DNA from: Shinella sp. CPCC 101442
GTDB lineage: Bacteria > Pseudomonadota > Alphaproteobacteria > Rhizobiales > Rhizobiaceae
Direction: 5' to 3'
Assembly: GCF_024704725.1 (NCBI RefSeq)
Contig: NZ_JALIQS010000001.1
Location: 1,054,001-1,118,000, forward strand
Length of the DNA stretch: 64,000 nt
The translations under genes and the position numbers were made by a program. Under the pieces are notes generated by a model that worked only from the letters and a program-made list of their open reading frames with translations, was not told the DNA's origin and made no database searches. This document shows positions 35,557-64,000 of this stretch, in pieces. Each line of letters starts with the position of its first letter. Positions within the stretch are counted from its first letter, which is position 1.

Positions 35557-36561
35557 TTACGCAGGGGCGGGCGACACCCAATCGAAAGCGATGAAGGGCT
35601 CATCGATATGGCGCGCCATGATGTCCGCGTATAGGCGTTCCGGGTTTTCAGGCGTCGCGTGGTGCATGAGGCCATCGAGCGGTACGCGGCCTTCCGAGAG
35701 CCATTCGAGGGCGCGAGAAAAGCCACTGAAAATGGAATGCGGGGAATTGTTGTAGCCTTCCAGCAACTCCTCCCACAGGAAGCTGCGGCCGTGCATGGGG
35801 AGTTCCCACTCCCATCCCGACCGGAGCGTGACGTGTTTGAAGAAGACGGCATTCGTAATGTCGTGGGCGGTGAGGTCGGTGTATTTCCGCCAGGGCACGC
35901 CGACGAGAACGACCTCGCCCATCCGGCGAACGATGTTGCAGGCCTCCAACACCGCGCCTTCGTGGCCTGAACAATCAACGACCAGCGCGATCCGACCCTG
36001 CATCTCCGGATCGTCGAGCGGCATCGCCGCGCGGGTATCGGCGATGCCGCTTTGTTCAAGCTGTCTCCGCCGCAAGGCGTCGGGATCCACGACCGTCACG
36101 CGGTAACCGCCAATCCGGAACAGATGGGCGGCGAGGAAGCCCACGGGGCCTGCGCCTGTGACGACGACGCGATCGCCCGGTCGCGCCTTCGTTGTCATCA
36201 AGGTCGTCATCGAAACACCCATCAGGCGTGCGATGACGGCAGTTTCCGGTGCCATACCCTCCGGCAGGCGAAGCGTGTTCTCGGCCGTGTGCGTCTGCGT
36301 CGATCGATGGCATCCCATCGCAAAGCGTCGTTCGCCCCGCTTCACGCCCGTAACGCCCTCGCCAATCTCCTCGACTTCGAAGACCGCGGCATAGCCCGGC
36401 CGGATGGGGAAGGTGTCGCCATTGGCCCAGCCGATCTCCGTACCCTGGCTGATCAGCGTGCAGAGCGTTCGCCCGCGGATTTCGCCGCGTTGCAGCGGGA
36501 GGTCGTCGTAGGACTGGAGCGTGAAGGTCTGACGGGCGGGAATGATGATTTCTGACGGCAT
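35557..36561 (-). CDS. MDR-superfamily alcohol dehydrogenase-like protein
   Basis: 334 aa medium-chain dehydrogenase. The GroES-like half carries 'LISQGTEIGWANGDTFPIRP' and the Rossmann half 'VVTGAGPVGFLAAHLF'. Unlike the ADH at 49788 it lacks the CxxC structural-zinc lobe and the GHE catalytic-zinc motif, so it is probably zinc-independent, in the BchC-like MDR branch. The start at 36561 (MPSEII) was chosen because upstream in-frame residues overlap the ATPase gene; the latter's stop is 10 bp upstream. Last gene of the CUT1 transporter operon; likely oxidises or reduces the imported polyol or sugar. Exact reaction unknown. Confidence 0.75.
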   Translation of the reverse strand: MPSEIIIPARQTFTLQSYDDLPLQRGEIRGRTLCTLISQGTEIGWANGDTFPIRPGYAAVFEVEEIGEGVTGVKRGERRFAMGCHRSTQTHTAENTLRLPEGMAPETAVIARLMGVSMTTLMTTKARPGDRVVVTGAGPVGFLAAHLFRIGGYRVTVVDPDALRRRQLEQSGIADTRAAMPLDDPEMQGRIALVVDCSGHEGAVLEACNIVRRMGEVVLVGVPWRKYTDLTAHDITNAVFFKHVTLRSGWEWELPMHGRSFLWEELLEGYNNSPHSIFSGFSRALEWLSEGRVPLDGLMHHATPENPERLYADIMARHIDEPFIAFDWVSPAPA

Positions 36562-36571
36562 GGCAGAGCTT

Positions 36572-37645
36572 TCAGGAAAGGAGGGTGTTGCTGGTCGCCG
36601 CATCGAAAAGATGCAACCCGGCAGCATTGAAGGTGACGTGGATCGACGCGTCGTTCGCCGGCCGGCTGGCGGCAGGAACCTGGGCGATCAGTTCGTGGGG
36701 ACCGACCCTGAGGTCGAGAAGCGCGTCGTCGCCGAGATATTCGGTCACCTCGACGGTAGCGCGCAGGGCGCCTGCTGTATCCGATGCCGTCAGCGTGACG
36801 TCCGACGGCCGAATGCCGATGAGCACCGCCTGACCCTCGGTTGCGCGGCTGGCGAAACGGTCGGGCACGGGAAGAGTGAAGGCTTCCGCCTGCAGCTTGC
36901 CGCCCATCACGCGCGCCGGCACGAGGTTCATGGCCGGACTGCCGATGAATGTCGCGACGAAGGTATTGGCGGGGCGCGTGTAGACATCCTCGGGGCTGCC
37001 CACCTGCTCGACATGGCCATCGCGCATGATGACGATCTTGTCGGCCAGCGTCATGGCTTCCACCTGATCATGGGTGACATAGAGCACGGTGGTGCCAAGC
37101 CGCTTGTGCAGCTTGCCGATCTCCCAGCGCACCTGCGTGCGCAGTTTCGCGTCGAGGTTTGACAGGGGCTCGTCGAACAGGAAGACGTCGGGTGTCCGCA
37201 CCATCGCCCGGCCCATCGCAACACGCTGGCGCTGACCGCCTGACAGGGCAGAGGGTTTGCGTGCCAGAAGCGCATCGAGGCCGAGAATGGCGGCGGTCTC
37301 GCGGACGCGGCGGTCGACTTCGCCAGGCGCGAGTTTCAGGGGGCGCAAGGCGAATTCCATGTTCTGCCGCACGGTCATGTGCGGATAGAGCGCGTAATTC
37401 TGGAACACCATCGCGATGCCGCGATCCTTCGGGGCCACGTCGTTGACGACACGACCGCCGATCGAGAGTTTTCCGCCGGAGACGTCTTCCAGCCCGGCCA
37501 CCATGCGCAAGGTCGTGGTTTTTCCGCACCCCGAGGGGCCGAGAAGCACGACGAACTCTCCCTTGTCGATCGTCAGATCAATACCGTGCACGACTTCGAA
37601 CGCGCCGTAGCGCTTGACCACTTTTTCCAGTGCGATGGACGACAT
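36572..37645 (-). CDS. CUT1 sugar ABC transporter ATP-binding protein (UgpC/MsmK type)
   Basis: 357 aa: Walker A 'GPSGCGKTTT', Q-loop 'VFQNYALYPHMTV', signature 'LSGGQRQRVAMGRAM', Walker B 'VFLFDEPLSNLDAK', H-loop 'VTHDQVEA'. The C-terminal TOBE/OB regulatory domain (about 235-355, 'IGIRPSDVTL') is typical of carbohydrate (MalK-like) transporters. It powers the two permeases and binding protein encoded upstream. Confidence 0.9.
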   Translation of the reverse strand: MSSIALEKVVKRYGAFEVVHGIDLTIDKGEFVVLLGPSGCGKTTTLRMVAGLEDVSGGKLSIGGRVVNDVAPKDRGIAMVFQNYALYPHMTVRQNMEFALRPLKLAPGEVDRRVRETAAILGLDALLARKPSALSGGQRQRVAMGRAMVRTPDVFLFDEPLSNLDAKLRTQVRWEIGKLHKRLGTTVLYVTHDQVEAMTLADKIVIMRDGHVEQVGSPEDVYTRPANTFVATFIGSPAMNLVPARVMGGKLQAEAFTLPVPDRFASRATEGQAVLIGIRPSDVTLTASDTAGALRATVEVTEYLGDDALLDLRVGPHELIAQVPAASRPANDASIHVTFNAAGLHLFDAATSNTLLS

Positions 37646-37655
37646 GCGTCTCTCC

Positions 37656-38480
37656 TTACTTGACTGAGCCCATCGTCAGGCCGCGCACCAGCCAACGCTG
37701 GCAGGTCAGCACGAAAACGACGCCGGGAATGAGGATGATGAAGGAACCGGCCATGATGCGGCCCCACTGGACGGCATCGGACGACCAGAAGGACATGACG
37801 GCGACAGTGGCGGTCTGCGCCTTGGAACCCGTCAGCATCAGGGCGAAGAGGAACTCGTTCCAGGAGAAGATGAAGCAGAACACTGCCGAGACCGCGAGGC
37901 CGGGTGCCGCGAGCGGCAGTGTCACCCGCCAGAAGGTTTCGAGGATGCCATAGCCATCGACCATTGCCGCTTCTTCGAGGGCCGAGGGGACCTCGTCGAA
38001 GAACCCCTTCATCAGCCAGACGACCAGCGGGATGTTGGCGGTGGAATAGACGATGATCAGCGCCAGCGGCGTATCGAGCAGGCCGACGGTCTTGAAGATG
38101 ATGTAGTAGGGCACGACCACCGTGATCGGCGGAAACATGCGCAGCGACAGGATCCAGAAGGCGACATCGTTCATGCGCCGGTGCCTGATGCGGCTGATCG
38201 CATAGGCGGCGAGCGATCCGAAGACGAGGCTGATCGCTGTCGAACCAAGGGCAACGATCAGGCTGTTGGCGATAAATTTCAGGAACGGCCGCGCCGTGAA
38301 GAGCACGTGATAATGCTCCCAGGTCGGGGTGAAGAAGAAGGCAGGCGGCTTCTGGAACATGATCGGTGCGGGTTTCACCGACGAGGAGGCGACGAGATAG
38401 ATCGGCGTCAGGAAGACGATCAGCACGACCGCGAGAAGCAGATAGATGAGAATGGCCTGACGGGTGGAGGGCTTGTTCAT
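37656..38480 (-). CDS. CUT1 sugar ABC transporter permease (MalG-like)
   Basis: 274 aa with about six membrane segments (first at 8-30, 'AILIYLLLAVVLIVFLTPIY'). The cytoplasmic EAA loop is 'EVPSALEEAAMVDGYGILE', characteristic of MalG/LacG-type permeases. The stop is 10 bp before the ATPase gene. Partner of the MalF-like permease just upstream. Confidence 0.88.
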   Translation of the reverse strand: MNKPSTRQAILIYLLLAVVLIVFLTPIYLVASSSVKPAPIMFQKPPAFFFTPTWEHYHVLFTARPFLKFIANSLIVALGSTAISLVFGSLAAYAISRIRHRRMNDVAFWILSLRMFPPITVVVPYYIIFKTVGLLDTPLALIIVYSTANIPLVVWLMKGFFDEVPSALEEAAMVDGYGILETFWRVTLPLAAPGLAVSAVFCFIFSWNEFLFALMLTGSKAQTATVAVMSFWSSDAVQWGRIMAGSFIILIPGVVFVLTCQRWLVRGLTMGSVK

Positions 38481-38484
38481 GGGA

Positions 38485-39375
38485 CTACTCCACGGCCGCG
38501 CGGTCGCGGTTCAGCGACTTGAAGAAGAAGGTGACGAGGATGGTGATGATGGCGAGCGAGACGAAGGAGGCGGCAGCGCCCATGCCCATGCGCCAGAACG
38601 TGAAGGATTCTCGATAGATGAACATCGAAAGCACTTCGGTGGAATCGCCCGGCCCACCCTTCGTCAGCACGAAGATGATGTCGTAGATCTTGAAGGCGTC
38701 GATCGCGCGCAGGAACATCAGGCTGATGAGGACGGGCTTCAACTGGGGCAGCGTCACGCGCCAGAACACGTCCCATCGTGAATTGCCATCGATCATCGCG
38801 GCCTCGTAGGGCTCGGGCGACAGCGAATGCAGGGCAGCCGCGGTGCCCATCATGATGAAAGGCGTCCATTGCCAGATATCGGCAATGGCGATTGCCCAGA
38901 GCGCCCAGGTGGTGGTGGTGATCCAGCCGACGCCGGAAATGCCGACGAGGCTGAGGAAATAATTGAGGTAGCCGAGTTCCGGGAAATAAAGGAACAGCCA
39001 GACGAGCCCCACGATGACGGGCGAGATCATCATCGGGATCAGAAGAAGCGTTCGCGCAACGCCCATGCCGGGCAGGCGCTGCGTGACGAGAAGCGCGATG
39101 CCGACGCCGAGCACGAGCTGGATCGAGAGCGTCATCGCCATCAGCTTCAGCGTCGTCAAAAGCGCATGCAGGAACGTGCCGGAGGACAGGATCTCGGCAT
39201 AGTTCGCCCAGCCGACGAAGACACGCGGGATGAAGGGCTTGGCGAGGTCGTAGTTACGGAACGACAACCATCCCGCATAGAGCATCGGGTAGATCGTCGT
39301 GAGGAAAAGGACGGCGACGACGGGCAGCAGGAAAACAAGGAAGATGCGCCTGTTGCGCGTTGCTTGATAGGCCAT
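38485..39375 (-). CDS. CUT1 sugar ABC transporter permease (MalF-like)
   Basis: 296 aa membrane protein. The first hydrophobic segment is 'IFLVFLLPVVAVLFLTTIYP' (about 11-30), and the EAA loop is 'SPEPYEAAMIDGNSRWDVFW'. Gene order binding protein - MalF - MalG - ATPase is standard for CUT1 importers. The start is separated from the binding-protein stop by a perfect 12-bp hairpin. Confidence 0.88.
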   Translation of the reverse strand: MAYQATRNRRIFLVFLLPVVAVLFLTTIYPMLYAGWLSFRNYDLAKPFIPRVFVGWANYAEILSSGTFLHALLTTLKLMAMTLSIQLVLGVGIALLVTQRLPGMGVARTLLLIPMMISPVIVGLVWLFLYFPELGYLNYFLSLVGISGVGWITTTTWALWAIAIADIWQWTPFIMMGTAAALHSLSPEPYEAAMIDGNSRWDVFWRVTLPQLKPVLISLMFLRAIDAFKIYDIIFVLTKGGPGDSTEVLSMFIYRESFTFWRMGMGAAASFVSLAIITILVTFFFKSLNRDRAAVE

Positions 39376-39398
39376 GTCGGAACTCCGGCGGTCAGGGA

Positions 39399-39427
39399 GC
39401 GCCGCCCCTGGGAGGCAGGGGCGGCGC
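39399..39427 (-). promoter_or_regulatory. Intercistronic stem-loop after CUT1 binding-protein gene
   Basis: GCGCCGCCCCTG (39399-39410) and CAGGGGCGGCGC (39416-39427) form a perfect 12-bp stem with a 5-nt loop, in the 66-nt gap between binding-protein stop and permease start. There is no U-run, so it is probably an mRNA-stability or attenuation element that favours binding-protein expression. Confidence 0.7.
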
Positions 39428-39441
39428 GGCGAACGTGCGCG

Positions 39442-40851
39442 TCAGTCGGCAAGGACTTTCGCGGGCACGTCGTCGATCCAGCGCAGAAGCGTCTCTTTCG
39501 GGAACATCTTCAGACGGGAGTTGACCGCGTTGCAGGCCGTGGTCAGGGCCTCCTCGGCCGTTGCGGTTTCGCCCGCCATGAACTTGTTCAGTTCGACACC
39601 GAAGGTTTCTTCTACGTCCTGATAGAAGGGGTGGAAGATCCGGCGCTTGGCATTGACCTGGCTGTCGAGCAGGACCTTGTAGTAGGGATACTTCTGCTGC
39701 AGGTCGGGATCGGAGAGGATCGCCTTGCGGAACTGGCTGACGCCGTTGCCCTCGTCGGCGAAGCGTCGCATCAGCTCCTCACTCGTCGACCACTTGATGA
39801 AAGCCCAGGCGGCTTCCTTTTCCTTGTCCGAAACCTTGGCGTTGATGGCGAAGGAGAGGGCACCGGTATAGGTCGGCTCGGCCTTGCCGCCATCCGTCGG
39901 GTTGGCTGCAAAGCCGGCCTTGCCGATTTCCGCGAGCCTGGCTTCGGCGGGGTTGGTCAACCGCACCGACCGGACCGACCAGTAGGCGGCCTGTGCGGCC
40001 TCGCCGCGCTCCATGTAGCCGGACTGGATGTCCCACATCAGGCCGAGATAGTCCGGCGGGTTGAAGGGGATCAGCGATTTCATGTATTCGGCCGCCTTGA
40101 TATGCGGTTCACCCGTCATGGCGCAGAGGCCGGTCGCCGGATCCCAATAGTCGCCACCGAACGAACGCATGAACGGAAAGTAGTCATGCGTGATGGCGCC
40201 CTGCACGCGGCTGTAGGACTGGCTGACACCGTAGAGGTCGTTTTCCAACGGCTTGCCGCCGGCATTCGCGCCTTTCCTGCGGGTGAAGAATTCGGCAATG
40301 TCGCGGTATTGGTCCCAGGTCTTGGGCGCAGCAAGATCATAACCGTATTTCGCCTTGAACGCCGCCTGCTCTTCGGCGTTTTCGAAGAGGTCGGCGCGAT
40401 ACTGGTTAAGCCAGGTCATGCCGGACGCCGGGAAGGCGAGAAGCTGGCCCTGCCAGGTGTTTTCCTGCAGCTGGATGGGGATGATGTCGTCGAGTTTGAT
40501 TTCCGCCGCGTCACGCTTGGCGAAGTCTGTGAGATCGACGAGGGCGCCGGCCTCGCCGAGCATGCCAACCCAGGGGCTGTCGACCCAGAGCAACTGATAG
40601 GACGGCGAGTCGGAGCTCGCCTCGATGATGATCTTGTCGACAAGGCCCGGATAGGGAAGCATGTCGATCTGAACCTTCGCGCCGGTGAGGGCTTCGAATT
40701 CCCCGACGATCGGGGCAAGGCGGGTAACCGACGTGTCGCCGATGCCGAGCATCTTGAGCTCGACGCCTTCAAACGGTTTTTCTGCCATGGCCGAGCCCGA
40801 TGTCGCGATGCAAAGCGCTGTGGCATAGGCCAATGTTCGTATGCTTCTCAT
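39442..40851 (-). CDS. CUT1 sugar ABC transporter substrate-binding protein
   Basis: 469 aa, signal peptide 'TLAYATALCIATSGSAMA' (cleaved near 22), then an extracellular family-1 solute-binding fold ('GVELKMLGIGDTSVTRLAPIV', 'WVDSPWVGMLGEAGALVDLT'). The ATG at 40851 follows a GGAGGAAAG site. The LacI-type palindrome at 40878-40889 lies 27 bp upstream, so the longer frame to 40893 would run through the operator and is unlikely. Substrate unknown; family members bind sugars, polyols or glycerol derivatives. Confidence 0.9.
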   Translation of the reverse strand: MRSIRTLAYATALCIATSGSAMAEKPFEGVELKMLGIGDTSVTRLAPIVGEFEALTGAKVQIDMLPYPGLVDKIIIEASSDSPSYQLLWVDSPWVGMLGEAGALVDLTDFAKRDAAEIKLDDIIPIQLQENTWQGQLLAFPASGMTWLNQYRADLFENAEEQAAFKAKYGYDLAAPKTWDQYRDIAEFFTRRKGANAGGKPLENDLYGVSQSYSRVQGAITHDYFPFMRSFGGDYWDPATGLCAMTGEPHIKAAEYMKSLIPFNPPDYLGLMWDIQSGYMERGEAAQAAYWSVRSVRLTNPAEARLAEIGKAGFAANPTDGGKAEPTYTGALSFAINAKVSDKEKEAAWAFIKWSTSEELMRRFADEGNGVSQFRKAILSDPDLQQKYPYYKVLLDSQVNAKRRIFHPFYQDVEETFGVELNKFMAGETATAEEALTTACNAVNSRLKMFPKETLLRWIDDVPAKVLAD

Positions 40852-40877
40852 TCTTTCCTCCTCCGTTATCCCGCTGT

Positions 40878-40889
40878 TGAAACGTTTCA
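40878..40889. promoter_or_regulatory. LacI-family operator (CUT1 operon)
   Basis: TGAAACGTTTCA, a perfect 12-bp palindrome with the central CG typical of LacI/GalR operators, 27 bp before the binding-protein ATG. The same core recurs at 43142-43153 and, weaker, at 45127-45138. Likely bound by the LacI-family regulator encoded at 43201-44208. Confidence 0.7.
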
Positions 40890-40934
40890 CCAATCAGCAA
40901 AACGGCATGCGGTGCGGGGCCGCATGCGGCAATA

Positions 40935-41450
40935 TCAGTTGTTTGCGGGCGACCATTGTGCGGGACCACCTGCGCGCTCGGCACCCAGCGGTCCATCCAT
41001 GCTGACGATTTCCAGGAATTGCCCCCACGGTGCCTTCAGATAGCACCAGGTCAATCCCTCCATGGGACCGCCATCGACATAGGTCGGGCCATCAAGCACT
41101 TCGACGTTTTCAGCACGAAGCCGATCGGCCGCGGCGTTGCAATCGTCTACCTGGAAGGCGAGGTGATAGCCGCCGGGCTGGCTGTTCCGCTTCAGCGGCG
41201 CGTCGGGCTCCGCGTCGCCGGAATAGCGGAAGATTTCGAGGTTTGTCCCGTTACCGATGCGCAGCACCCGGATGTCCTCGATGCGCGTATTGCCCGCCAC
41301 GCCGAGACGGCGGCGCATGTAGTCGTCATCGACATCGACGAGGCCGGTCGACAGGCATTCGACCGCGCCGAACAGTTTCGTGAAAAACGCTACGGCTTCG
41401 TCAAGATCGGGCACCGTGAAGCCCACATGCTGCATTCCATAGACCTTCAT
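40935..41450 (-). CDS. VOC-family (glyoxalase-like) protein
   Basis: 171 aa with two beta-alpha-beta-beta-beta modules: 'MQHVGFTVPDLDEAVAFF' at the start and 'GYHLAFQVDDCNAAADRL' midway. Candidate metal ligands are H8, E in 'LEIFRYSG', H in 'YHLAF' and E in 'FLEIVSMDG'. VOC enzymes include glyoxalases, epimerases (methylmalonyl-CoA type), dioxygenases and isomerases; the reaction cannot be told here. An epimerase or isomerase step on a CoA ester or sugar acid would fit the cluster. 25 bp behind the GMC gene. Confidence 0.75.
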   Translation of the reverse strand: MKVYGMQHVGFTVPDLDEAVAFFTKLFGAVECLSTGLVDVDDDYMRRRLGVAGNTRIEDIRVLRIGNGTNLEIFRYSGDAEPDAPLKRNSQPGGYHLAFQVDDCNAAADRLRAENVEVLDGPTYVDGGPMEGLTWCYLKAPWGQFLEIVSMDGPLGAERAGGPAQWSPANN

Positions 41451-41475: not shown

Positions 41476-43110
41476 TCAGGCCATTTCCCGCTCGCGGCTT
41501 TGCTCCTCCCTCAGGTCGGCCGCAGGCAGGGATGGCAGACCGCGAATGAGATCGCTGGCCTTTTCACCGATCATGATCGTCGGCGCATTGGTGTTCGATG
41601 AATTGATGCGCGGCATGATCGAGGCATCGCAGACCCTGAGACCGGCAATGCCCCGCACACGCAGCTCAGGATCGACCACCGCCATGTCATCCGTTCCCAT
41701 GCGGCAGGTACCAACCGGATGGTGATCCGTCTTGGCCATGCGGCAGGCGTAGTCGAACAGCGCTTCCCGGTCCTTCACGGCATCTCCCGGCAGAACCTCG
41801 TGTCGAAGATACGGGCGCAGCGCAGGCTGGCGCAGAATCTCGCGTGCCATCTCCAGGCACCGCAACGACGTTTCGCGATCATAGGGATCGGACCAGTAGT
41901 TCGGGTCGATCAGAGGCGCGCCCAGCGGATCGGCCGAAGCAAGGCGCACGGTACCGCGCGAGCGCGGCCGCATGATTGCCGAGTTGAGGGTGATGCCCCA
42001 ACCGTTGATCGTGGCGATGCCCTTCTCGATGCCGGATCCCTGACCGAGATGAAACTGGATGTCTGGCCAGGTTGAATCGGGATCGGCATACCAGAAGCCA
42101 CCCGTCTCGAAGAGCGAAGAGGCGACCGGACCGGATTTCAGGGCCAGATATTGCAGACCGGCGGCAATCATCCGGTCGGGCCGCAGAACCCCGTCATAGG
42201 AATGGGGTCCGGTGCATTCGGCCAGCACGCAGATATCGATGTGGTCCTGCAGATTTTCGCCGACGCCCGGCAGGTGATGCCGAACCTCGATGCCGACACT
42301 GCGCAGATGATCGGCCGGTCCGATGCCCGACAGCATCAGGAGACGGGGCGAACCGATGGCACCGGCCGCCAGGATCACTTCCCGGCGCGCATGACGAACC
42401 GTCCCATCCATCATCTCGACGCCGGTCGCCCGGCCTTCGACTATGATGATCCGACGCACCTGGGATCCCGTCTCAACCTTCAGATTTCGGCGCGGCTCGG
42501 CGCCGCGAAGATAGGTTCCCGCAACGGAAGACCGTCGGGCATCCCGTTGCGTCAACTGATAGAAGCCGACGCCGGCCTGATTGCGCCCATTGAAATCGGG
42601 ATTATAGGGCATGCCCCATTGCTGCCCGGCGCGCACGAAGGCCTCGCAAATCGGCAGCGTGGCGCGTGGCATCGACACGCCGAGCGGACCCTCCGTGCCG
42701 TGAAATGGGTCGGCAAACCGCTCGTTTCCTTCGGCGCGTTTGAAGTAGGGCAGGACATCGCGGTATCCCCAACCAGCGCAACCGTGCTCCTCGGCCCAGC
42801 CATCATAATCGCGACGGTTCCCGCGGGTATAGATCTGGGCATTGATGCTCGAGCCACCGCCGATCACCTTTGCCTGGGTGAACCAGAGCACGCGATCCTG
42901 CAGATGCTTTTGCGGTACGGTGGACCAACCCCAGCTGGCGATGCCCTTCGTCATCTTCGCAAAGCCGGCCGGCCAATGGAACAGCACCGATCGGTCGCGC
43001 CCGCCGGCCTCCAGCAGGAGCGCCGTCGTGTCGGCGTCCTCCGTCAGCCGCGCGGCAATGACGCAACCCGCCGAACCGCCACCGACGATAATGTAATCCG
43101 TCTCCATCAT
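41476..43110 (-). CDS. GMC-family FAD-dependent alcohol oxidoreductase (copy 1)
   Basis: 544 aa. N-terminal ADP-binding 'DYIIVGGGSAGCVIAARL', second FAD motif 'VIGGGSSINAQIYTRGN', 'AAGAIGSPRLLMLSGIGP' (GMC signature 2), and the active-site pair His in 'KTDHHPVGTCRMG' and Asn in 'INSSNTNAPTIMIGEKASD'. Choline-dehydrogenase-like, but there is no N-terminal export signal. It oxidises a primary alcohol to an aldehyde by family inference. The promoter region upstream carries adjacent TetR-type and LacI-type palindromes. It is paralogous to the GMC gene at 52340. Confidence 0.88.
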   Translation of the reverse strand: MMETDYIIVGGGSAGCVIAARLTEDADTTALLLEAGGRDRSVLFHWPAGFAKMTKGIASWGWSTVPQKHLQDRVLWFTQAKVIGGGSSINAQIYTRGNRRDYDGWAEEHGCAGWGYRDVLPYFKRAEGNERFADPFHGTEGPLGVSMPRATLPICEAFVRAGQQWGMPYNPDFNGRNQAGVGFYQLTQRDARRSSVAGTYLRGAEPRRNLKVETGSQVRRIIIVEGRATGVEMMDGTVRHARREVILAAGAIGSPRLLMLSGIGPADHLRSVGIEVRHHLPGVGENLQDHIDICVLAECTGPHSYDGVLRPDRMIAAGLQYLALKSGPVASSLFETGGFWYADPDSTWPDIQFHLGQGSGIEKGIATINGWGITLNSAIMRPRSRGTVRLASADPLGAPLIDPNYWSDPYDRETSLRCLEMAREILRQPALRPYLRHEVLPGDAVKDREALFDYACRMAKTDHHPVGTCRMGTDDMAVVDPELRVRGIAGLRVCDASIMPRINSSNTNAPTIMIGEKASDLIRGLPSLPAADLREEQSREREMA

Positions 43111-43124: not shown

Positions 43125-43140
43125 GTAACTAGTTCGTTAC
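43125..43140. promoter_or_regulatory. TetR-type operator, site A
   Basis: GTAACTAGTTCGTTAC, 15 bp upstream of the GMC start. It has GTAAC/GTTAC ends and the perfect inner palindrome AACTAGTT. One of five related sites (A-E) in the promoters of region 5. The LacI-type palindrome starts 2 bp further upstream. Confidence 0.7.
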
Positions 43141-43141
43141 T

Positions 43142-43153
43142 TGAAACGTTTAA
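43142..43153. promoter_or_regulatory. LacI-family operator (GMC promoter)
   Basis: TGAAACGTTTAA matches 11 of 12 positions of the palindrome at 40878. It is flanked on the GMC side by TetR-type site A and on the other side by a minus-strand TTGACT (43169-43174), so the two operators lie within or just after the core promoter. Confidence 0.6.
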
Positions 43154-43200
43154 TCAAACGCGCTCCGCAGTCAAGGGGCTTGTGCAGGCGAATTTCAGAT

Positions 43201-46276: not shown

Positions 46277-46286
46277 CCATAGGCAC

Positions 46287-53989: not shown

Positions 53990-53991
53990 CG

Positions 53992-54902: not shown

Positions 54903-54918
54903 ATAACTAGTTAGTTAC
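54903..54918. promoter_or_regulatory. TetR-type operator, site C
   Basis: ATAACTAGTTAGTTAC, 30 bp before the CoA-transferase ATG (54949) and in the shared region with the divergent aldo/keto reductase. A TTGTCC (54881-54886) / TATAAC (54902-54907)-like promoter overlaps it. Closest to the consensus of all five sites. Confidence 0.7.
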
Positions 54919-57324: not shown

Positions 57325-58584
57325 ATGAAGCCCGAAGACAAAGACTTTCTCGCAGAGCTTTTTCGTGCCGCGGTCGAGGCTGCGGATCCGGAAAAAGCCG
57401 TGAGCGCGTATCTGCCGCCCCGGCCCAAGGGGCGAACCGTCGTGATTGGCGCCGGCAAAGGCGCCGCGCAGCTTGCCGCAGCTTTCGAAAAGCTGTGGGA
57501 GGGGCCGCTGGAAGGTGTTGTGGTGACGCGCTACGGCTATGCCGCGCCCTGCCGGCGCATCCGTGTGCTCGAGGCGGCCCATCCCGTACCCGATGCGGCG
57601 GGGCTTGCGGCATCGCAGGCACTTTTCGACGCCGTAACGGGGCTTACCGAGGACGATCTCGTCGTCGCGCTGATATGCGGCGGCGGTTCCGCGCTTCTTC
57701 CCGCTCCACCTGGCAATCTGACGCTGGAGGATGAGGCTGCACTGAACAGCGCGCTCCTTTCAAGCGGCGCGCCGATTTCCGTCATGAACGTCCTTCGCAA
57801 GCAGGTCTCCGGCATCAAGGGCGGGCGGCTTGCTGCGGCCTGTCATCCTGCGAAGGTCGTAACGCTCGTCGTCTCCGATGTCCCGGGCGACGATCCGGCG
57901 CAGGTCGCAAGCGGGCCGACGGTGCCGGATGCAAGCGATCGTGAAGACGCACGCTCGCTGGTCAAGACATGGGGTATCAAGCTGCCCGAGCGGATCGAGG
58001 CGTGGCTCGGCGGACATGAGGGAGAGCCGCCGTCGGCGGATGACCCGGTCTTTGCCGCGCATGAGGTTCATGTCGTCGCTTCCGCCCGCCTCTCCCTGGA
58101 GGCTGCCGCACAACGGGCGGAGGCCCTTGGCGTGCCTGCCGTCATCCTGTCGGATTGCATCGAGGGCGAGGCGCGCGAAGTCGGGCGCGTTCATTCCGCG
58201 ATTGCGCGTGAAGTCGCCAGTCGCGACCGCCCATTTTCGCGCCCGGTCGTTATCCTCTCGGGCGGGGAGACGACGGTGACTGTCAGGGGGCGTGGCAAGG
58301 GCGGACGCAATACGGAGTTCCTGCTGTCGCTTGCGCTCGCAGGCGAGGGCGTTCCCTTCGCGGCGCTTGCTGCCGACACGGATGGTATCGACGGCTCGGA
58401 GGACAATGCGGGTGCGTTTGCCGATGGCGCCAGCATGAGGCGTTTGCGCGAGCTGGGGACGGATCCCTCAGCCCTGCTCGCCGGCAACGATGCCTGGACG
58501 GCGTTTTACCGTTTGGAAGATCTGTTCGTGCCCGGCCCGACAGGAACCAACGTCAATGACTTCAGGGCAATCCTGATCCGCTAA
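57325..58584 (+). CDS. Glycerate 2-kinase (DUF4147/TtuD family)
   Basis: 419 aa. An N-terminal MOFRL-associated Rossmann-like domain ('VVIGAGKGAAQLAAAFEKLW', 'VALICGGGSALLPAPPGNLT') and a C-terminal MOFRL domain ('RGKGGRNTEFLLSLAL', 'AALAADTDGIDGSEDNAGAF'). Once annotated hydroxypyruvate reductase, the family phosphorylates D-glycerate to 2-phosphoglycerate. Its presence implies that the pathway releases glycerate or hydroxypyruvate/tartronate semialdehyde. The ATG at 57325 gives the usual family N-terminus; 34 bp after the hydratase. Confidence 0.88.
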   Translation: MKPEDKDFLAELFRAAVEAADPEKAVSAYLPPRPKGRTVVIGAGKGAAQLAAAFEKLWEGPLEGVVVTRYGYAAPCRRIRVLEAAHPVPDAAGLAASQALFDAVTGLTEDDLVVALICGGGSALLPAPPGNLTLEDEAALNSALLSSGAPISVMNVLRKQVSGIKGGRLAAACHPAKVVTLVVSDVPGDDPAQVASGPTVPDASDREDARSLVKTWGIKLPERIEAWLGGHEGEPPSADDPVFAAHEVHVVASARLSLEAAAQRAEALGVPAVILSDCIEGEAREVGRVHSAIAREVASRDRPFSRPVVILSGGETTVTVRGRGKGGRNTEFLLSLALAGEGVPFAALAADTDGIDGSEDNAGAFADGASMRRLRELGTDPSALLAGNDAWTAFYRLEDLFVPGPTGTNVNDFRAILIR

Positions 58585-58623: not shown

Positions 58624-59640
58624 TCACGCCGGAACGGGCGCATCCTCGCGCAACAGGCCCTTTTTCTTCAGATCCGCCCAGAAGTCGGCTGGGATCGGAT
58701 GGGCGAACCACGCAAGGTTCTGGTCCAGCTGTTCGATCGTGCGCGTGCCTGCCATGAAGGACGGGACAGCGGGGTGGGCTACGACGAACTGCAGGGCCGC
58801 TGCTGCAAGCGGCACGCCATGTTCGGCGCAGACGGCCTCGATCTTCGCGACCTTTTCCATGATCTCCCGTGGTGCGGGAGCATAGTTGTACTTCGCGCCT
58901 TCCTTTGCCCCGGTGGCAAGGATGCCCGAATTGAAGCCACCGCCGACGACCACTGCCGCACGGCGCGCCTCGCAGAGCGGCAGGAAGGTGTCCAGCGCTT
59001 CCTGTTCGAGCAGGGTATAGCGCCCTGCCAGCAGGAAGCAGTCGAAATCGTGGCGTAGCAGCGCTTCGTGGCAGACCTGCCATTCGTTGACGCCGACGCC
59101 GATCGCCTTCACGAGCTTTTCCGAGCGCAGCTGCTCCAGTGCCCGCCAGGCGCCGTCCATTGCCTGCTCGAACACCTCCGGCTGTTCGCTCCCGCGCGTG
59201 AAAACGTCGATGTCGTGGATGAAGCACATATCCATCCGCTCCAGCCCAAGCCTCTGCAAGCTGTCCTCGAAGGCGCGCATCGTACCATCGTAGCTGTAGT
59301 CGAAATGCATGGTGAACGGCGCGGCATTCGTCCAGGGCGCGAAGTCGATCGTATCGCGCCGCGCCGGGCGCAGCAGGCGCCCAACCTTGGAGGCGAGCAC
59401 GAAGTCATCCCGGTTCTTCCAGCGCAGCGCATGGCTGGTCCGCAGTTCGGCGAGGCCATGGCCATACATCGGGGCGGTGTCGAAGAATCGCACGCCAGCC
59501 TCCCAGGCACGCGCGAACATTTCCTGCGACGTCTCCTCGTCTATCTCGCGAAAAATGTTGCCGAGTGGGGCGGTGCCGAAGCCGAAGGCGGTCACGTCGA
59601 GGTCCGTTCGACCGAATTTCCGCTTTTCTCCTGGATGCAT
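58624..59640 (-). CDS. Aldo/keto reductase (D-threo-aldose/L-fucose dehydrogenase-like)
   Basis: 338 aa, longer AKR class. Start 'KRKFGRTDLDVTAFGFGTAP', tetrad Asp/Tyr in 'FFDTAPMYGHGLAE', Lys in 'LASKVGRLLRP', His in 'DMCFIHDIDVF'; 'GVGVNEWQVCHEALL' follows. Relatives oxidise L-fucose/D-threo-aldoses or pyridoxal with NAD(P). The ATG at 59640 has a GGAGGA site. TetR-type site D lies just upstream, so it belongs to the regulon although transcribed leftward alone. Confidence 0.85.
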   Translation of the reverse strand: MHPGEKRKFGRTDLDVTAFGFGTAPLGNIFREIDEETSQEMFARAWEAGVRFFDTAPMYGHGLAELRTSHALRWKNRDDFVLASKVGRLLRPARRDTIDFAPWTNAAPFTMHFDYSYDGTMRAFEDSLQRLGLERMDMCFIHDIDVFTRGSEQPEVFEQAMDGAWRALEQLRSEKLVKAIGVGVNEWQVCHEALLRHDFDCFLLAGRYTLLEQEALDTFLPLCEARRAAVVVGGGFNSGILATGAKEGAKYNYAPAPREIMEKVAKIEAVCAEHGVPLAAAALQFVVAHPAVPSFMAGTRTIEQLDQNLAWFAHPIPADFWADLKKKGLLREDAPVPA

Positions 59641-59654: not shown

Positions 59655-59670
59655 GTAACTGATTAGTGAA
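59655..59670. promoter_or_regulatory. TetR-type operator, site D
   Basis: GTAACTGATTAGTGAA, the weakest match (right half degenerate), 15 bp before the aldo/keto reductase ATG at 59640 and overlapping a minus-strand TATTAT -10-like element. Confidence 0.5.
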
Positions 59671-59761: not shown

Positions 59762-59777
59762 GTAACCAGATAGTTAC
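59762..59777. promoter_or_regulatory. TetR-type operator, site E
   Basis: GTAACCAGATAGTTAC, 20 bp before the acyl-CoA dehydrogenase ATG, with both GTAAC/GTTAC ends intact. TTGACG at 59735-59740 and TATGTA (59759-59764) form a plausible promoter that the site overlaps. Confidence 0.65.
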
Positions 59778-59796: not shown

Positions 59797-60939
59797 ATGT
59801 ATCTCACCGAAACACAGGAGCAGGTGCGCGAGATGGCGCGCGCTTTTGCTGACGAAACGATCCGCCCTCTGGCCGAGGAACTCGACCGCGAGGAGCGCTT
59901 CCCCGCGGATCTCTACGAGGAGATGGCAAAGCTCGGCCTCTTCGGCATCGGCGTGCCGGAAGCGCTCGGTGGGCCGGGTTTCGATACGCTCACCTATGCG
60001 CTTGTCATGGAGGAGTTGAGCCGTGGTTATGCTTCTGTCGCCGACCAGTGCGGCCTGATCGAACTCATCTCGAGCCTCCTCGTGCGCCATGGCACGGAAA
60101 GCCAGCAGGCTCTTCTGCCTGAGATCCTCGGCATGCGTTCGAAGGTTGCCTATTGCATCACCGAGCCGGAGGCAGGCACCGATGTTTCGGGCATCCGCAC
60201 CACGGCAACACGCGACGGAAACGGCTGGCGGCTGAACGGCGGCAAGATCTGGATCCACAATGCACCGGTCGCCGACTACGGTTTCGTGCTGGCGCGCACG
60301 GACAAGGAAGCCGGCAACCGCGGCATGTCGATCTTCATCGTCGACCTGCATTCGGCCGGCGTCGAAAGAGGGCCGAAGGAACACAAGATGGGGCAGCGCG
60401 CCAGCCAGGTCGGCGCGCTGAACTTCACGGATGTGCGCCTGCCGGTCGATGCCCTGCTCGGCACGGAAGGCCGCGGCTTCCACATGATGATGTCGGTGCT
60501 CGACAAGGGGCGTGTCGGCATTGCTTCGCTTGCGGTCGGCATCGCCCAGGCCGGCCTCGAGGCAGCACTCGACTATGCCGGGACGCGCAAGCAGTTCGGC
60601 AAGGCGATTTCCGATTTCCAGGGTGTGCAATGGCTGCTCGCCGACATGGCGAAGGACATCGAGGCCGCGCGCCTGCTCGTCCACTCCGCCGCCTCGAAGA
60701 TCGACAGTGGGGCGGATGCAACGAAAGCCTGCTCCATTGCAAAATGTTTTGCCGGCGACATGGCCGTGCAACGCACCGCCGATGCCGTGCAGGTCTTTGG
60801 CGGCTCCGGCTACATCCGCGGTTTCGAGGTCGAGCGTCTCTACCGCGATGCGAAAATCACCCAGATCTATGAAGGCACCAACCAGATCCAGCGCATGATC
60901 ATCGCGCGCGAACTCCTGAAGAAGGGCGCACGGGCATGA
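59797..60939 (+). CDS. Acyl-CoA dehydrogenase
   Basis: 380 aa, full family length. 'GLFGIGVPEALGGPGFDTLT' (N-terminal helical domain), FAD/substrate loop 'CITEPEAGTDVSGIRTTA', C-terminal 'AVQVFGGSGYIRGFEVERLY', and catalytic Glu in 'ITQIYEGTNQIQRMIIAREL'. It introduces a 2,3 double bond into the CoA ester and passes electrons to ETF, whose beta subunit gene starts at 63751 in the same operon. The ATG at 59797 is preceded by GGGAGGCGAGG. The stop overlaps the SDR start. Confidence 0.92.
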   Translation: MYLTETQEQVREMARAFADETIRPLAEELDREERFPADLYEEMAKLGLFGIGVPEALGGPGFDTLTYALVMEELSRGYASVADQCGLIELISSLLVRHGTESQQALLPEILGMRSKVAYCITEPEAGTDVSGIRTTATRDGNGWRLNGGKIWIHNAPVADYGFVLARTDKEAGNRGMSIFIVDLHSAGVERGPKEHKMGQRASQVGALNFTDVRLPVDALLGTEGRGFHMMMSVLDKGRVGIASLAVGIAQAGLEAALDYAGTRKQFGKAISDFQGVQWLLADMAKDIEAARLLVHSAASKIDSGADATKACSIAKCFAGDMAVQRTADAVQVFGGSGYIRGFEVERLYRDAKITQIYEGTNQIQRMIIARELLKKGARA

Positions 60940-61715
60940 GCGCCGCGTCTGCCCGGCCGGCGGCACTCGTCACGGGCTCTTCACGCGGCATCGGGCTTGC
61001 CGTTGCCGAGGCCTTGGCGCGGGAGGGCTTTGCGGTCGCGATTAACGCGCCGGTCGAGGATGCCGAGCTTGCCGCCGCCGTCGCCCGCATCGCGGCCTAT
61101 GGCGTTCCGGTGGTCGCCGCCCCGTTCGATGTCGCCGCGATCGGCGGCCACGAGGCGGCGCTCGGTGCGGTCGAGGAAAAGCTCGGGCCGCTCACCACGC
61201 TGGTCAACAATGCCGGTGTCGGCGTGCTAAAGCGCGGCGACATGCTGGAGGTCTCGGAAGAGAGCTGGGACCGCTGCTTTGCCGTCAACACGAAGGCCCT
61301 GTTCTTCCTGAGCCAGGCCTTCGCCCGCCGCCTTCTTGCACGCGCCCGGCCATCGCTCTTCCATTCGATCGTCAACGTCACCTCGTCGAATGCCGTCGCC
61401 GTAGCGGAGCAGCGTTCGGAATACTGCTCCTCGAAGGCCGCAGCCGCCATGGTTTCCAAGACGCTCGCCGTTCGGCTCGGGCGGGAGAACATTGCCGTTT
61501 ATGACGTCCAGCCCGGCCTGATCGCCACCGAGATGACCGCGCCTGTCATCGAGGCTTATCGCGAACGGGCGTCGCAGGGGCTTACGCTCTTCCCACGCGT
61601 CGGCGAGCCGGACGAAGTCGGCACGTTGATCGCATCCCTTGCGACCGGCCGGCTTCCTTACACAACCGGACTGTCGATCCCGGCCGATGCCGGCATGCTC
61701 GTCCCGCGCTTCTGA
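60936..61715 (+). CDS. Short-chain dehydrogenase/reductase (3-oxoacyl reductase-like)
   Basis: 259 aa classical SDR. NAD(P) motif 'TGSSRGIGLAVAEALA' (about 13-28), 'VNNAGVGVLK', active-site Ser in 'IVNVTSSNAVAV', Tyr/Lys in 'SEYCSSKAAAAM', 'VQPGLIATEM'. It probably oxidises the 3-hydroxyacyl intermediate or a sugar hydroxyl. The ATGA overlap with the acyl-CoA dehydrogenase gene indicates coupling. Confidence 0.88.
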   Translation: MSAASARPAALVTGSSRGIGLAVAEALAREGFAVAINAPVEDAELAAAVARIAAYGVPVVAAPFDVAAIGGHEAALGAVEEKLGPLTTLVNNAGVGVLKRGDMLEVSEESWDRCFAVNTKALFFLSQAFARRLLARARPSLFHSIVNVTSSNAVAVAEQRSEYCSSKAAAAMVSKTLAVRLGRENIAVYDVQPGLIATEMTAPVIEAYRERASQGLTLFPRVGEPDEVGTLIASLATGRLPYTTGLSIPADAGMLVPRF

Positions 61716-61725: not shown

Positions 61726-62874
61726 ATGAAAATTGCCCTTCCCGATACCGCCGGTCGCCGCACCGACTACGCCCTGACCGGAACACCGATCGCGGCTGCG
61801 ACGCTCGGTAAAAACCCGGCGCGTGTGGTCTATTCTGCCGCTCATGTCGTCGCCGATCCTTTCACAGCGAACGATCCCTCGGGTCGCGCTACGGTGGACT
61901 GGTCGAAGACGATGGAGTTTCGCCGCTACCTCGCCGGCCTTGGCCTCGGCATTGCCGAGGCGATGGATACGGCGCAGCGCGGCATGGGGCTCGATTGGCC
62001 AGGCGCGCTCGAACTGATCCGCCGCACGCGCGAGGAGCTTCCGGATGCGCTCGTCGCCAACGGTTGCGGCACGGATCATCTCGACCCCGCGACGGTGACG
62101 AGCCTGGACGATGTGCGCCGGGCCTATCTGGAACAGGCGGGAGCGATCCAGAAACTCGGTGGCCGCCTCATCCTCATGGCCTCCCGCGCGCTGGTGCGCG
62201 TCGCGAAAGGGCCGGAAGACTACCTCAAGGTCTATTCCGATGTGCTCGCCGCGTGCGATGAGCCGGTGATCCTGCATTGGCTCGGCGATATGTTCGACCC
62301 ACAACTTGCCGGCTATTGGGGCGATGCGGCGTTTGAACCTGCCATGCAGACGGCGCTCGCGGTTATCGAAGCGAACACGGCGAAGGTCGACGGCATCAAG
62401 ATCTCCCTCCTCGACAAGGAGAAAGAGATCGTCATGCGCCGCCTCCTCCCGGCCGGCGTGAAAATGTACACTGGCGACGACTTCAACTATCCCGAACTCA
62501 TCGAGGGCGACAGCGAGGGGTTCTCCCATGCTCTGCTCGGCATCTTCGACCCGCTCGCGCCTGCCGCGGCCTATGCGGTGGAGCGGCTGGGCGAGGGTGA
62601 CAAAGCAGCCTTCCGCGCAACACTCGACCCCACCGTGCCGCTCGCCCGTCTGATCTTTCGCGCGCCCACGCAATACTACAAGACCGGCGTCGTCTTCCTC
62701 GCCTGGCTGAATGGTTTCCAGGATCACTTCGTGATGCTGAATGGCGCCCATGCCATGCGGCCGCTCCCCTATTTCGTCGAGGTCTTCCGTCTTGCCGACC
62801 AGTGCGGCCTGTTGCGGAATCCGGAGCTTGCAGTCGAGCGCATGAAGAAGCTGCTCGCCCTCTACGGCGCATGA
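61726..62874 (+). CDS. DUF993 family protein (dihydrodipicolinate-synthase-like aldolase fold)
   Basis: 382 aa. Segments 'GLGIAEAMDTAQRGMGLDW', 'GRLILMASRALVRVAKGPED' and 'VILHWLGDMFDPQLAGYWGD' resemble the DUF993 group, remote relatives of class-I aldolases of the DHDPS/NAL type. A candidate Schiff-base lysine is in 'KVDGIKISLLDKEKE'. No reaction is established for the family to my knowledge. It is coupled (ATGA at 62871) to the TIM-barrel epimerase-like gene, so the pair likely acts on one sugar-derived intermediate, e.g. retro-aldol cleavage. Confidence 0.75.
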   Translation: MKIALPDTAGRRTDYALTGTPIAAATLGKNPARVVYSAAHVVADPFTANDPSGRATVDWSKTMEFRRYLAGLGLGIAEAMDTAQRGMGLDWPGALELIRRTREELPDALVANGCGTDHLDPATVTSLDDVRRAYLEQAGAIQKLGGRLILMASRALVRVAKGPEDYLKVYSDVLAACDEPVILHWLGDMFDPQLAGYWGDAAFEPAMQTALAVIEANTAKVDGIKISLLDKEKEIVMRRLLPAGVKMYTGDDFNYPELIEGDSEGFSHALLGIFDPLAPAAAYAVERLGEGDKAAFRATLDPTVPLARLIFRAPTQYYKTGVVFLAWLNGFQDHFVMLNGAHAMRPLPYFVEVFRLADQCGLLRNPELAVERMKKLLALYGA

Positions 62875-63734
62875 CGATGCGCGATTTTTCGAGCGACCAT
62901 TCGGCCTTGGCACTGAACACAGCCAGCCTCGGGCACAACCTCGAAGGCCATGGAGCGGGATGGGAGCCCGAGCGGGTGATAGATGCCTGCGCCGCGCGCG
63001 GTTTCGGCTCGATCGTCTTCTGGCGTCGGGAAATCGGTGCACGGGCCATCGAGATTGGGGACCGGGCGCGGGCAGCGGGCCTGTCCGTGGCCGGGCTTTG
63101 CCGCACCCCGTTTCTCGTCGGCACGGAGGCCATCGACAAGGCTGCGGTTCTCGACGAGGCGAAGGCCTCCATCGACATGGCCGCCGGCCTCGGGGCGACC
63201 GTGCTGACGATTGTGGTGGGAGGTGTGCATCGCGGCACCAAGGGCACGGCCGAGAGCCTCAAGATCGTGGCCGACCGTGTCGCCGACCTCGCACCCTATG
63301 CGGCGGAATGCAATGTCAAGCTGGCGCTCGAACCGCTCAATCCCGTCTATGCCGGCAACCGCTCCTGCCTGACGACCGTGCGGGATGCTCTCGACATCTG
63401 CGACGCGGTCGACGCACCAAACCTCGGCGTTGCCGTCGATGTCTATCATGTCTGGTGGGACAGCGACCTCGATACCCAGCTGATACGTGCCGGCAAGGCC
63501 CGGATCTTCGGCTATCATCTCTGCGACTGGCTCGCCGATACGCGCGATGTCCTGCTCGATCGCGGCATGATGGGCGATGGTGTCGCCGATCTCAAGGCGA
63601 TCCGCAAAGGCGTCGAGGGCGCGGGCTACGCCGGGCCGTGCGAAGTCGAGATTTTTTCTGCGAACAACTGGTGGAAGCGCGACCCCGGCGAGGTTCTCGA
63701 CGTGATGGTCGACCGATTCCGCACCCTCTGCTGA
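62871..63734 (+). CDS. Sugar phosphate isomerase/epimerase-like TIM-barrel protein
   Basis: 287 aa, AP-endonuclease-2/xylose-isomerase-like barrel. Metal-ligand pattern: Glu in '[16 protein letters not shown]', Asp/His in '[13 protein letters not shown]', His in '[14 protein letters not shown]', Glu in '[12 protein letters not shown]'. Family members isomerise or epimerise sugars or keto-acids (inosose isomerase, hydroxypyruvate isomerase, tagatose epimerase). The start overlaps the DUF993 stop; a second ATG at 62877 is possible. Confidence 0.8.
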
Positions 63735-63750
63735 CGACAAGGAGAATTCC

Positions 63751-64000
63751 ATGAAACTGCTCGTTCCGATCAAGCGGGTCGTAGATTACAACGTCAAAAT
63801 TCGCGTCAAGTCTGACGGCTCGGGCGTCGAGCTAGCGAATGTGAAGATGTCGATGAACCCGTTCGACGAGATTTCCGTCGAGGAAGCGTTGCGGCTGAAG
63901 GAAGCCGGCAAGGCAGAGGAAGTGATCGTCGTGTCGATCGGTCCCGCCAAGGCCGAAGAGACGCTGCGCACAGCACTCGCCATGGGTGCCGACCGCGCCG
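63751..64000 (+). CDS. etfB: Electron transfer flavoprotein beta subunit (5' part)
   Basis: The first 83 residues are in the window: '[20 protein letters not shown]', '[20 protein letters not shown]', '[20 protein letters not shown]'. This is the typical EtfB start. It accepts electrons from acyl-CoA dehydrogenase; etfA is expected just outside. A dedicated ETF copy within the operon supports the idea that the pathway depends on the acyl-CoA dehydrogenase step. AAGGAG lies before the ATG; 16 bp behind the epimerase-like gene. Confidence 0.93.

Follow-up and report, generated by a model that had tools for sequence, protein, structure and literature searches.

A candidate TetR-type regulon for CoA-linked catabolism of a pyranose-like polyol in Shinella sp. 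CPCC 101442

Gene content of the block

The 64,000-nucleotide stretch of Shinella sp. CPCC 101442 analysed here (the window) holds a block, at 35557–64000, that combines sugar import with CoA-ester oxidation. Pfam scans of its 25 called genes recovered every family that an initial annotation had placed there: CUT1 and CUT2 importers, GMC and medium-chain (MDR) dehydrogenases, an aldehyde dehydrogenase (ALDH), a CoA-transferase, an acyl-CoA dehydrogenase (ACAD) with its electron transfer flavoprotein (ETF), a crotonase, an SDR dehydrogenase, a glycerate 2-kinase, DUF993 and an epimerase-like barrel. The ETF is seen as the start of etfB and is complete in relatives. Two aldo/keto reductases (AKRs), a VOC protein, a second GMC dehydrogenase, and TetR and LacI regulators are further members that the annotation had not listed. 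The genes share operators, and we estimate a probability of about 60% that they form one catabolic regulon for a pyranose-like polyol.

The left arm runs on the minus strand. It comprises mdr0, an MDR dehydrogenase gene that ends the gmc1/CUT1 unit (35557–36561; PF00107, with no ADH_N domain found), a MalK-like CUT1 ATP-binding protein (36572–37645; PF00005, OB_MalK, TOBE), permease 2 (37656–38480) and permease 1 (38485–39375), both PF00528, and the binding protein sbp1 (39442–40851; PF01547). The closest solved chain to sbp1 is 5iai (E 1.5e-43), whose ligand we take to be ribitol. A VOC/glyoxalase-fold protein (40935–41450; PF13669, PF00903) and gmc1, a GMC FAD alcohol dehydrogenase (41476–43110; PF00732/PF05199), follow, and the arm closes with a LacI-family (43201–44208; PF00356/PF13377) and a TetR-family regulator (44233–44886; PF00440/PF17938).

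The right arm lies on the plus strand, with the exception of the two AKR genes. It opens with the CUT2 binding protein sbp2 (45161–46276; PF13407; closest solved chain 2rjo, E 3e-80), permease 1 (46340–47314; PF02653), an ATP-binding protein with two ABC domains (47323–48828; PF00005 in two stretches) and permease 2 (48837–49778; PF02653). An MDR dehydrogenase (49782–50822; PF08240/PF00107) resembles threonine and polyol dehydrogenases and reached the cut-off of none of the 24 NCBIfam models listed. Next come the ALDH (50847–52343; PF00171; top model BADH, 474 bits against a cut-off of 669) and gmc2, a choline-dehydrogenase-like GMC alcohol dehydrogenase (52340–53938; PF00732/PF05199; NF002550, 553 bits against 605). 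The DkgB-like akr1 stands on the opposite strand (53992–54810; PF00248; NF008377, 218 bits against 327). The single-chain, YdiF-like CoA-transferase coaT (54949–56520; PF01144; 2ahu YdiF, E 5e-100) is followed by ech, an enoyl-CoA hydratase (ECH) of the crotonase family (56517–57290; ECH_1, PF00378), and by glyK, a glycerate 2-kinase with DUF4147 and MOFRL domains (57325–58584; PF13660/PF05161). On the opposite strand, akr2 (58624–59640; PF00248) is like L-galactose dehydrogenase (7lh6, E 1.4e-27). The last unit contains acad, of the acryloyl/caffeyl-CoA short-chain type (59797–60939; PF00441/02770/02771; 6fah, E 5e-94), sdr (60936–61715; NF009386 (PRK12745), 332 bits, above the cut-off of 250), the DUF993 gene (61726–62874; PF06187, E 1e-177), iso, a xylose-isomerase-like TIM barrel and candidate isomerase or epimerase (62871–63734; PF01261; 3ju2 'SMc04130', E 5e-72), and the 5' part of etfB (63751–64000; PF01012).

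The two importers are distinct. An SBP_bac_1 binding protein, a MalK-type ATPase with a TOBE domain and BPD_transp_1 permeases identify the one at 36572–40851 as CUT1, while a Peripla_BP_4 binding protein, a two-domain ATPase and BPD_transp_2 permeases identify the one at 45161–49778 as CUT2; sbp1 and sbp2 come from separate families of binding proteins. The scans of the 25 genes showed no thiolase, no CoA synthetase and no beta-keto acid cleavage enzyme (DUF849).

Adjoining the regulon, and not a member of it, is a gene at 27316–35361 for a 2681-residue protein with many RTX calcium-binding repeats (PF00353, 15 stretches). A perfect 15-nucleotide inverted repeat (35488–35530) lies between this gene and mdr0.

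Shared operators

Comparison of intergenic gaps yielded an 8-2-8 inverted repeat around GTAACTA-NN-TAGTTAC, the TetR-type operator. At up to three mismatches the window holds five sites, where 0.06 are expected, and none of 100 shuffles reached five. One lies upstream of gmc1 (43125–43140, one mismatch; two mismatches in the related loci L191–L193), one in the tetR–sbp2 gap (45029–45044, three mismatches) and one in the akr1–coaT gap (54903–54918, one mismatch), and two share the akr2–acad gap, on the akr2 side (59655–59670, three mismatches) and on the acad side (59762–59777, one mismatch). The tetR–sbp2 site is also present in L125, L128, L129, L131 and L057, and was not found in that gap of L130.

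The sites are kept in other genomes. A scan seeded with the CoA-transferase collected 48 loci, in which contig ends limit all presence counts. With at most two mismatches, a site is present in the akr1–coaT gap of 39 of 44 testable loci and in the akr2–acad gap of 36 of 38. We counted 96 sites over the 48 loci, where 20 permuted palindromes averaged 1.75; two of these gave 16 and 14 sites and the others at most two. In the 6.1-Mb genome, the three sites with one mismatch or none all fall inside the block. Allowing three mismatches gives 12 places, five of them in the block, and a reversed control is commoner, at 61; the genome-wide number of sites alone is no evidence, and the signal is the concentration of the best sites in the block. 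The shared operators proposed by the initial annotation are real, and these comparisons of sequence support the block as a predicted single regulon. By eye, the operators lie on or just after -10-like sequences, a placement that fits repression.

A LacI-type 17-mer occurs in exactly two perfect copies genome-wide, before sbp1 (40877–40893; kept in L191–L193) and before gmc1 (43141–43157; one mismatch in L191–L193). A looser LacI 14-mer is weakly above chance in the window, with four occurrences against 1.1 and four reached in 3 of 100 shuffles.

Distribution and variants

The 48 loci span Rhizobiales, Rhodobacterales, Geminicoccaceae and the actinobacterium Enemella, and the enzyme core of CoA-transferase, crotonase, SDR, DUF993 and epimerase-like barrel recurs across Alphaproteobacteria and in this one actinobacterium. 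By gene, ech is present in 45 loci, akr1 in 44, gmc2 in 42, sdr in 41, acad and aldh in 40 each, DUF993 and iso in 39 each, akr2 and mdr in 38 each, the CUT2 genes in 37–38 and glyK in 22. The gmc1 count of 40 reflects cross-matching with gmc2 and was not used. Where acad, sdr and DUF993 occur together, iso accompanies them in 38/38 loci and coaT with ech in 37/38. A Dabb-domain protein is found in 24 of the 48 loci, and a MaoC-like protein in six as called, one of them Pfam-confirmed. The window CoA-transferase is 98% identical to its S. kummerowiae counterpart. In S. meliloti ml47 the whole block is on pSymA, where the laboratory strain S. meliloti 1021 carries a CoA-transferase 87% identical; in Paracoccus kondratievae the block is plasmid-borne. 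A ParDE-type toxin-antitoxin pair stands between gmc2 and akr1 in ml47 (L057, 12354–12960).

Two variants exchange the importer. L038 has a TRAP importer (PF03480, PF04290) in place of the sugar importers, and L181, with ECH and CoA-transferase of only 38% identity, has an MFS importer whose top model is the D-galactonate transporter (231 bits, below the cut-off of 395). GMC and ALDH were not found in the fetched stretches of L038 (14 kb) and L181 (19 kb), and may lie elsewhere. A gene that looks by eye like a Rieske-type oxygenase (L133, 12542–13705) adjoins an ACAD-free variant of the core.

Within the window etfB comprises its first 83 codons, and the contig stops 38 bases past the window end. 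Relatives carry etfB, etfA and sometimes ETF-QO immediately 3' of iso. In S. meliloti, Paracoccus and strain XES5 the barrel gene is followed by complete ETF genes, the alpha subunit being annotated 'FAD-binding protein' in Paracoccus. XES5 has another ParDE pair downstream of these ETF genes. Of the 39 relatives' loci with iso, nine reach a contig end within 260 bases past it. A second near-identical N-terminal etfB ends at the end of contig C6 of the same genome (L178), and the two truncated copies are 94 and 96% identical to XES5 over 96 residues. Because this second copy also stops at a contig end, the remainder of the ETF, common to both, is probably a collapsed repeat, and these genomes probably hold another ETF that the block's ETF nearly duplicates.

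Three kinds of DUF993 neighbourhood

We grouped DUF993 neighbourhoods into three types, of which type I is the kind seen in the window. Type II loci hold LacI, a Gfo/Idh protein, CoA-transferase, ECH, ALDH, a CUT1 importer, two GMC dehydrogenases, SDR and Dabb. A tree built from 83 DUF993 rows gathers the 40 type I rows, without exception, into one set of 42 (support 100/98) that also contains the unclassified L181 and L185. Thirteen of 14 type II rows form another set (100/96), whose position next to type I is weakly supported (91/62), and type III rows occur in more than one group.

Type III (26 loci; the kind of S. meliloti SMc04130/SMc04132, the latter presumably the DUF993 protein of that species) shares with the window DUF993, a TIM barrel (40–47% identical, seen in 25 of 26 loci) and a TetR 40–55% identical in 18 of 26. 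It differs in its Gfo/Idh dehydrogenases and in its importers, which are CUT1, TTT (TctA and TctC in L091) or others. The fetched type III stretches gave no CoA-transferase, ECH or ACAD match, save one 27% ACAD match in L190. SMc04132, 4133, 4135, 4138, 4139 and 4390–4392 are reported as lower in a phbC phaR mutant in TY medium, according to the available text of PMC12542648.

With at most two mismatches, the operator has 107 sites over 59 partly overlapping type I loci, none in 15 type II loci, and 11 sites over 20 type III loci, in ten of them; among 12 later-fetched loci, a site with up to three mismatches was found in L190 (type III) only. Relatives of the TetR are found alongside the operator in loci of types I and III. 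From this and from its adjacency, we infer that the TetR at 44233–44886 owns the operator.

Some type III readings were set aside. A protein of about 470 residues had been considered an enolase-superfamily member. L091 alone has it above the MR_MLE_C cut-off (31.8 bits, with the cut-off at 29.4); in L136 it scores lower than that, and it is unmatched in L103 and L101. The L136 importer, taken at one point for a branched-chain amino-acid type, is BPD_transp_1 by Pfam. Separately, the L103 cluster (12628–13908), with others like it, has a binding protein closest to the solved YesO-type proteins (4r6k, 5z6b), a type linked to pectin, and may be a CoA-free relative acting on uronic-acid-like compounds.

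The same Shinella genome carries a type II locus, which we refer to as the sister cluster (contig C9, 60000–83114; L005 and L006). Identities between its proteins and those of the window are 69% for CoA-transferase, 64% for GMC against gmc1 and 52% against gmc2, 57% for ECH, 56% for DUF993, 51% for ALDH and 38% for SDR. Its Gfo/Idh protein matches 1,5-anhydro-D-fructose reductase (4koa, 2glx) at 564 bits. Of 19 type II loci as fetched, nine, counting that of the query, carry an orthologue of this reductase at 76% identity or more, and none was found within the fetched stretch of the other ten. The binding protein of the sister cluster matches 4r2b (770 bits), whose ligand is presumably glucose.

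Enzymes of one type are in places joined to the importer of the other. In L120 and L121 (Rhodobacter metagenome-assembled genomes) type I enzymes are directly followed by a type II importer, and in L119 (Enemella) a divergent lacI stands between them; the sister cluster's four importer genes are 60–78% identical to those of all three. In L133 a type II importer (71–84%) adjoins gmc2-coaT-ech-sdr-DUF993-iso. Since type I enzymes are paired with a type II importer in these four loci, we suggest that the two types may handle related substrates.

Membership of the CUT1/gmc1 unit

The unit of CUT1, gmc1, VOC and mdr0 is present in few genomes, though we assign it to the predicted regulon because it carries a TetR operator. 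L191, L192 and L193 keep the order tetR-lacI-gmc1-voc-sbp1-perm-perm-malK-mdr0, with the TetR operator before gmc1. L194 has a related unit (62–77%) elsewhere in its genome, with a TetR site of two mismatches before VOC, and in S. meliloti L057 an mdr0 (69%) and an annotated VOC gene adjoin tetR.

It is conceivable, if unlikely, that one regulator governs two pathways, the CUT1/gmc1 unit for uptake of a polyol and the CUT2/CoA block for a different substrate. The CUT1 genes of the unit occur in none of the 48 loci, which mostly end at sbp2, the unit is absent from the flank of tetR in L125 and L128–L131, and the two binding proteins come from different families; all this would suit separate pathways. 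The operator speaks against the separation, standing before gmc1 in the window and in L191–L193 and before VOC in L194, and so does co-occurrence: five of 21 Shinella genomes have sbp1, every one of them among the nine with ACAD (hypergeometric 0.006, and 0.014 when the window's own genome is left out).

Proposed pathway

On the gene content, operators, conservation and importer swap read from the DNA, we infer repression, the order of reactions and a lyase role for DUF993 as follows. TetR would repress, through operators at their promoters, four transcription blocks: gmc1-VOC-CUT1-mdr0; CUT2-mdr-aldh-gmc2; coaT-ech-glyK, with akr1 opposite; and acad-sdr-DUF993-iso-etf, with akr2 opposite. LacI may add a second layer of control on the gmc1/CUT1 unit. 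The substrate would enter through CUT2 (and CUT1), and GMC and ALDH would convert a primary alcohol into a carboxylate, which the CoA-transferase would turn into a CoA ester. ACAD, crotonase and SDR could then act in a sequence like beta-oxidation, electrons from ACAD passing by ETF, and ETF-QO where present, to quinone. In place of a thiolase, DUF993 and iso are proposed to carry out the C–C cleavage and isomerisation. Glycerate would be a product, phosphorylated by glycerate kinase where present, and MDR and the two AKRs may adjust other carbons.

Several parts of this scheme have independent bearing. The initial annotation had proposed that an alcohol is oxidised to an acid, the acid converted to a CoA ester and the ester finally cleaved, and the importer variants agree with this order: because L038 and L181 combine acid-type importers with fetched stretches in which no GMC or ALDH was found, the CoA core probably starts from a carboxylate, made from an alcohol by GMC and ALDH in loci of the window kind. 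Conservation reaches at least 97% of rows for the residues that we take to be catalytic, namely E114 and E134 of ECH (58 rows), E359 of ACAD (42) and E328 of CoA-transferase (61). K225 of DUF993 is kept in at least 97% of 81 rows, and our guess is that it is catalytic. DUF993 gives a full-length Pfam match (591 bits against a cut-off of 24, residues 3–381), and its closest solved chain is 4dnh, 'Uncharacterized protein'. The 25 genes include no thiolase, and for the cleavage/isomerisation step DUF993 and iso are therefore the likely, and best, candidates. The idea of a C3 unit leaving as glycerate stands in part: the kinase is in the block and in the type II loci L138 and L186–L188, which suggests glycerate as the exit, but it is optional, being present in 17 of the 37 testable loci (those with both ech and akr2).

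Other observations weigh against the scheme. The operator was not found at up to three mismatches in the type-I-like L181, L184 and L185, and in a promoter scan a consensus sigma-70 match touches the operator at a single site (59699–59670). ACAD was not found in the fetched stretches of L133, L152, L184 and L181. A comparison of DUF993 with DHDPS by hhalign gave E values of 0.42 and 0.14 with shallow profiles, and the Pfam matches listed for DUF993 up to E 10 include no DHDPS. The view of DUF993 as a DHDPS-type aldolase had come solely from annotation labels and from a 'GIKxS' motif spotted by eye; it was set aside, though DUF993 may still be a distant relative of such enzymes.

The combination has relatives among known pathways. 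In cyclohexanecarboxylate degradation and classical beta-oxidation, ACAD, crotonase and a dehydrogenase act in this order. The window has the same order of enzymes and differs by its polyol-derived acid, the absence of a thiolase among the 25 genes and its sugar importers; plain fatty-acid beta-oxidation was rejected on the last two grounds. According to the available text of PMC6365646, deoxyribonate catabolism in Klebsiella michiganensis runs through acyl-CoA intermediates with glycerate kinase, and its set contains a CoA synthetase, a beta-hydroxyacyl-CoA dehydrogenase, a thiolase, a CoA-transferase and glycerate kinase; the term acyl-CoA dehydrogenase is not in that text. Common to both would be the conversion of a sugar acid to a CoA ester, oxidation by a dehydrogenase, cleavage, glycerate phosphorylation and a CoA-transferase in the cluster, the corresponding genes of the window being coaT (54949–56520) and glyK (57325–58584). 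The Shinella block, in contrast, has CoA-transferase as the sole activating enzyme seen, adds ACAD, ETF and crotonase, has DUF993 and a TIM barrel with no thiolase or CoA synthetase found, and carries ABC sugar importers and GMC/ALDH upstream.

The statement that no named pathway has this gene set holds for the set itself: open-licence literature gave no description of it, under anhydroglucitol either, and no functional study under DUF993 or the S. meliloti tags. The tags SMa136x–141x in this search were guesses from map position, and PMC9007349 contained none of the tags searched. It does not hold for the principle, since CoA-linked oxidation of a sugar acid together with glycerate kinase is already published, as far as the text of PMC6365646 was available. 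What is added here is a predicted regulon with a likely pathway.

Candidate substrates

We tentatively favour 1,5-anhydrohexitols or a close analogue as the substrate, at odds well below even. The lead comes from the sister cluster, with its reductase orthologue, and from the four loci that pair window-type enzymes with that cluster's kind of importer; it was not among the proposals of the initial annotation, of which a deoxy polyol and a cyclitol are kept as rivals; nothing pointed to the glycol ether also proposed, though no search was aimed at it. In a more specific and more doubtful form, the block and the sister cluster together would constitute the missing aerobic pathway for 1,5-anhydroglucitol (1,5-AG) and 1,5-anhydromannitol. 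C6 would be oxidised to a carboxylate and activated with CoA, thioester-assisted elimination and hydration would open the ether ring, and DUF993 cleavage would yield glycerate and a C2/C3 unit.

The anhydrohexitol lead faces several difficulties. The 1,5-anhydro-D-fructose reductase is absent from the window block, its orthologue being in the sister cluster, and 20 of 30 block-bearing genomes lack it at E 1e-40; in the other ten it is 61–88% identical (seven genomes) or 50–54% (three). ACAD is hard to place on an acid with a hydroxyl on the beta-carbon, as would arise from a 1,5-anhydrohexitol. The aerobic 1,5-anhydrofructose route of Sinorhizobium morelense also differs: in the available text of PMC12441222, reduction gives 1,5-anhydromannitol, which a P450-like hydroxylation, by an enzyme still unidentified, converts to mannose. 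The reductase of that system has its orthologue in the Shinella sister cluster, which shares six enzyme families with the window; the scheme as given there has no CoA step and a P450-like enzyme, and the reductase is not in the window block.

ACAD with a dedicated ETF requires a CH–CH pair at the alpha and beta carbons, and a deoxy sugar or deoxy polyol would supply it. In this alternative, which we also consider unlikely but worth weighing, the acid has no beta-hydroxyl, ACAD and ECH would give a 3-hydroxyacyl-CoA, SDR a 3-keto ester, and cleavage acetyl-CoA and glycerate. Glycerate kinase in 22 of the 48 loci is consistent with it, and the Klebsiella deoxyribonate pathway (PMC6365646, in the text available) is a precedent. 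Against it, thiolase, CoA synthetase and DUF849 were not found among the 25 genes, and variants with no ACAD in the fetched stretch retain the remaining genes; the plain deoxyribonate route was rejected on the lack of thiolase and DUF849 there.

A hydroxymethyl cyclitol (a carba-sugar or cyclohexane polyol) appears far less probable. Its CH2OH would become COOH and then a CoA ester, followed by ring desaturation, hydration, oxidation and ring opening by DUF993, comparable to cyclohexanecarboxylate degradation. The second-best NCBIfam model of ACAD is cyclohexane-1-carbonyl-CoA dehydrogenase (315 bits against a cut-off of 650) and that of MDR is scyllo-inosose 3-dehydrogenase IolM (200 against 450), and the solved relatives of the binding proteins presumably have hexose-type ligands. 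Both models, however, are far under their cut-offs with another model scoring higher each time, and hydroxymethyl cyclitols are rare in nature, whereas the block is widespread. A myo-inositol route through IolM and IolO was rejected, IolM at that score and IolO at 42 bits against 300 being far under their cut-offs.

Significance

DUF993, whose solved structure 4dnh is uncharacterised, gains a testable role as a candidate C–C lyase, and the operator that defines the regulon offers a search pattern for other genomes. According to the available text of a 2025 review (PMC12441222), an oxidative 1,5-AG pathway is not yet described, an enzyme for aerobic metabolism of 1,5-AG is needed for a probiotic that lowers its uptake, and such a probiotic is relevant to the neutropenia of glycogen storage disease type Ib (GSDIb) and G6PC3 deficiency. 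If the substrate lead is true, the window block and the sister cluster would be direct candidates for aerobic 1,5-AG metabolism.

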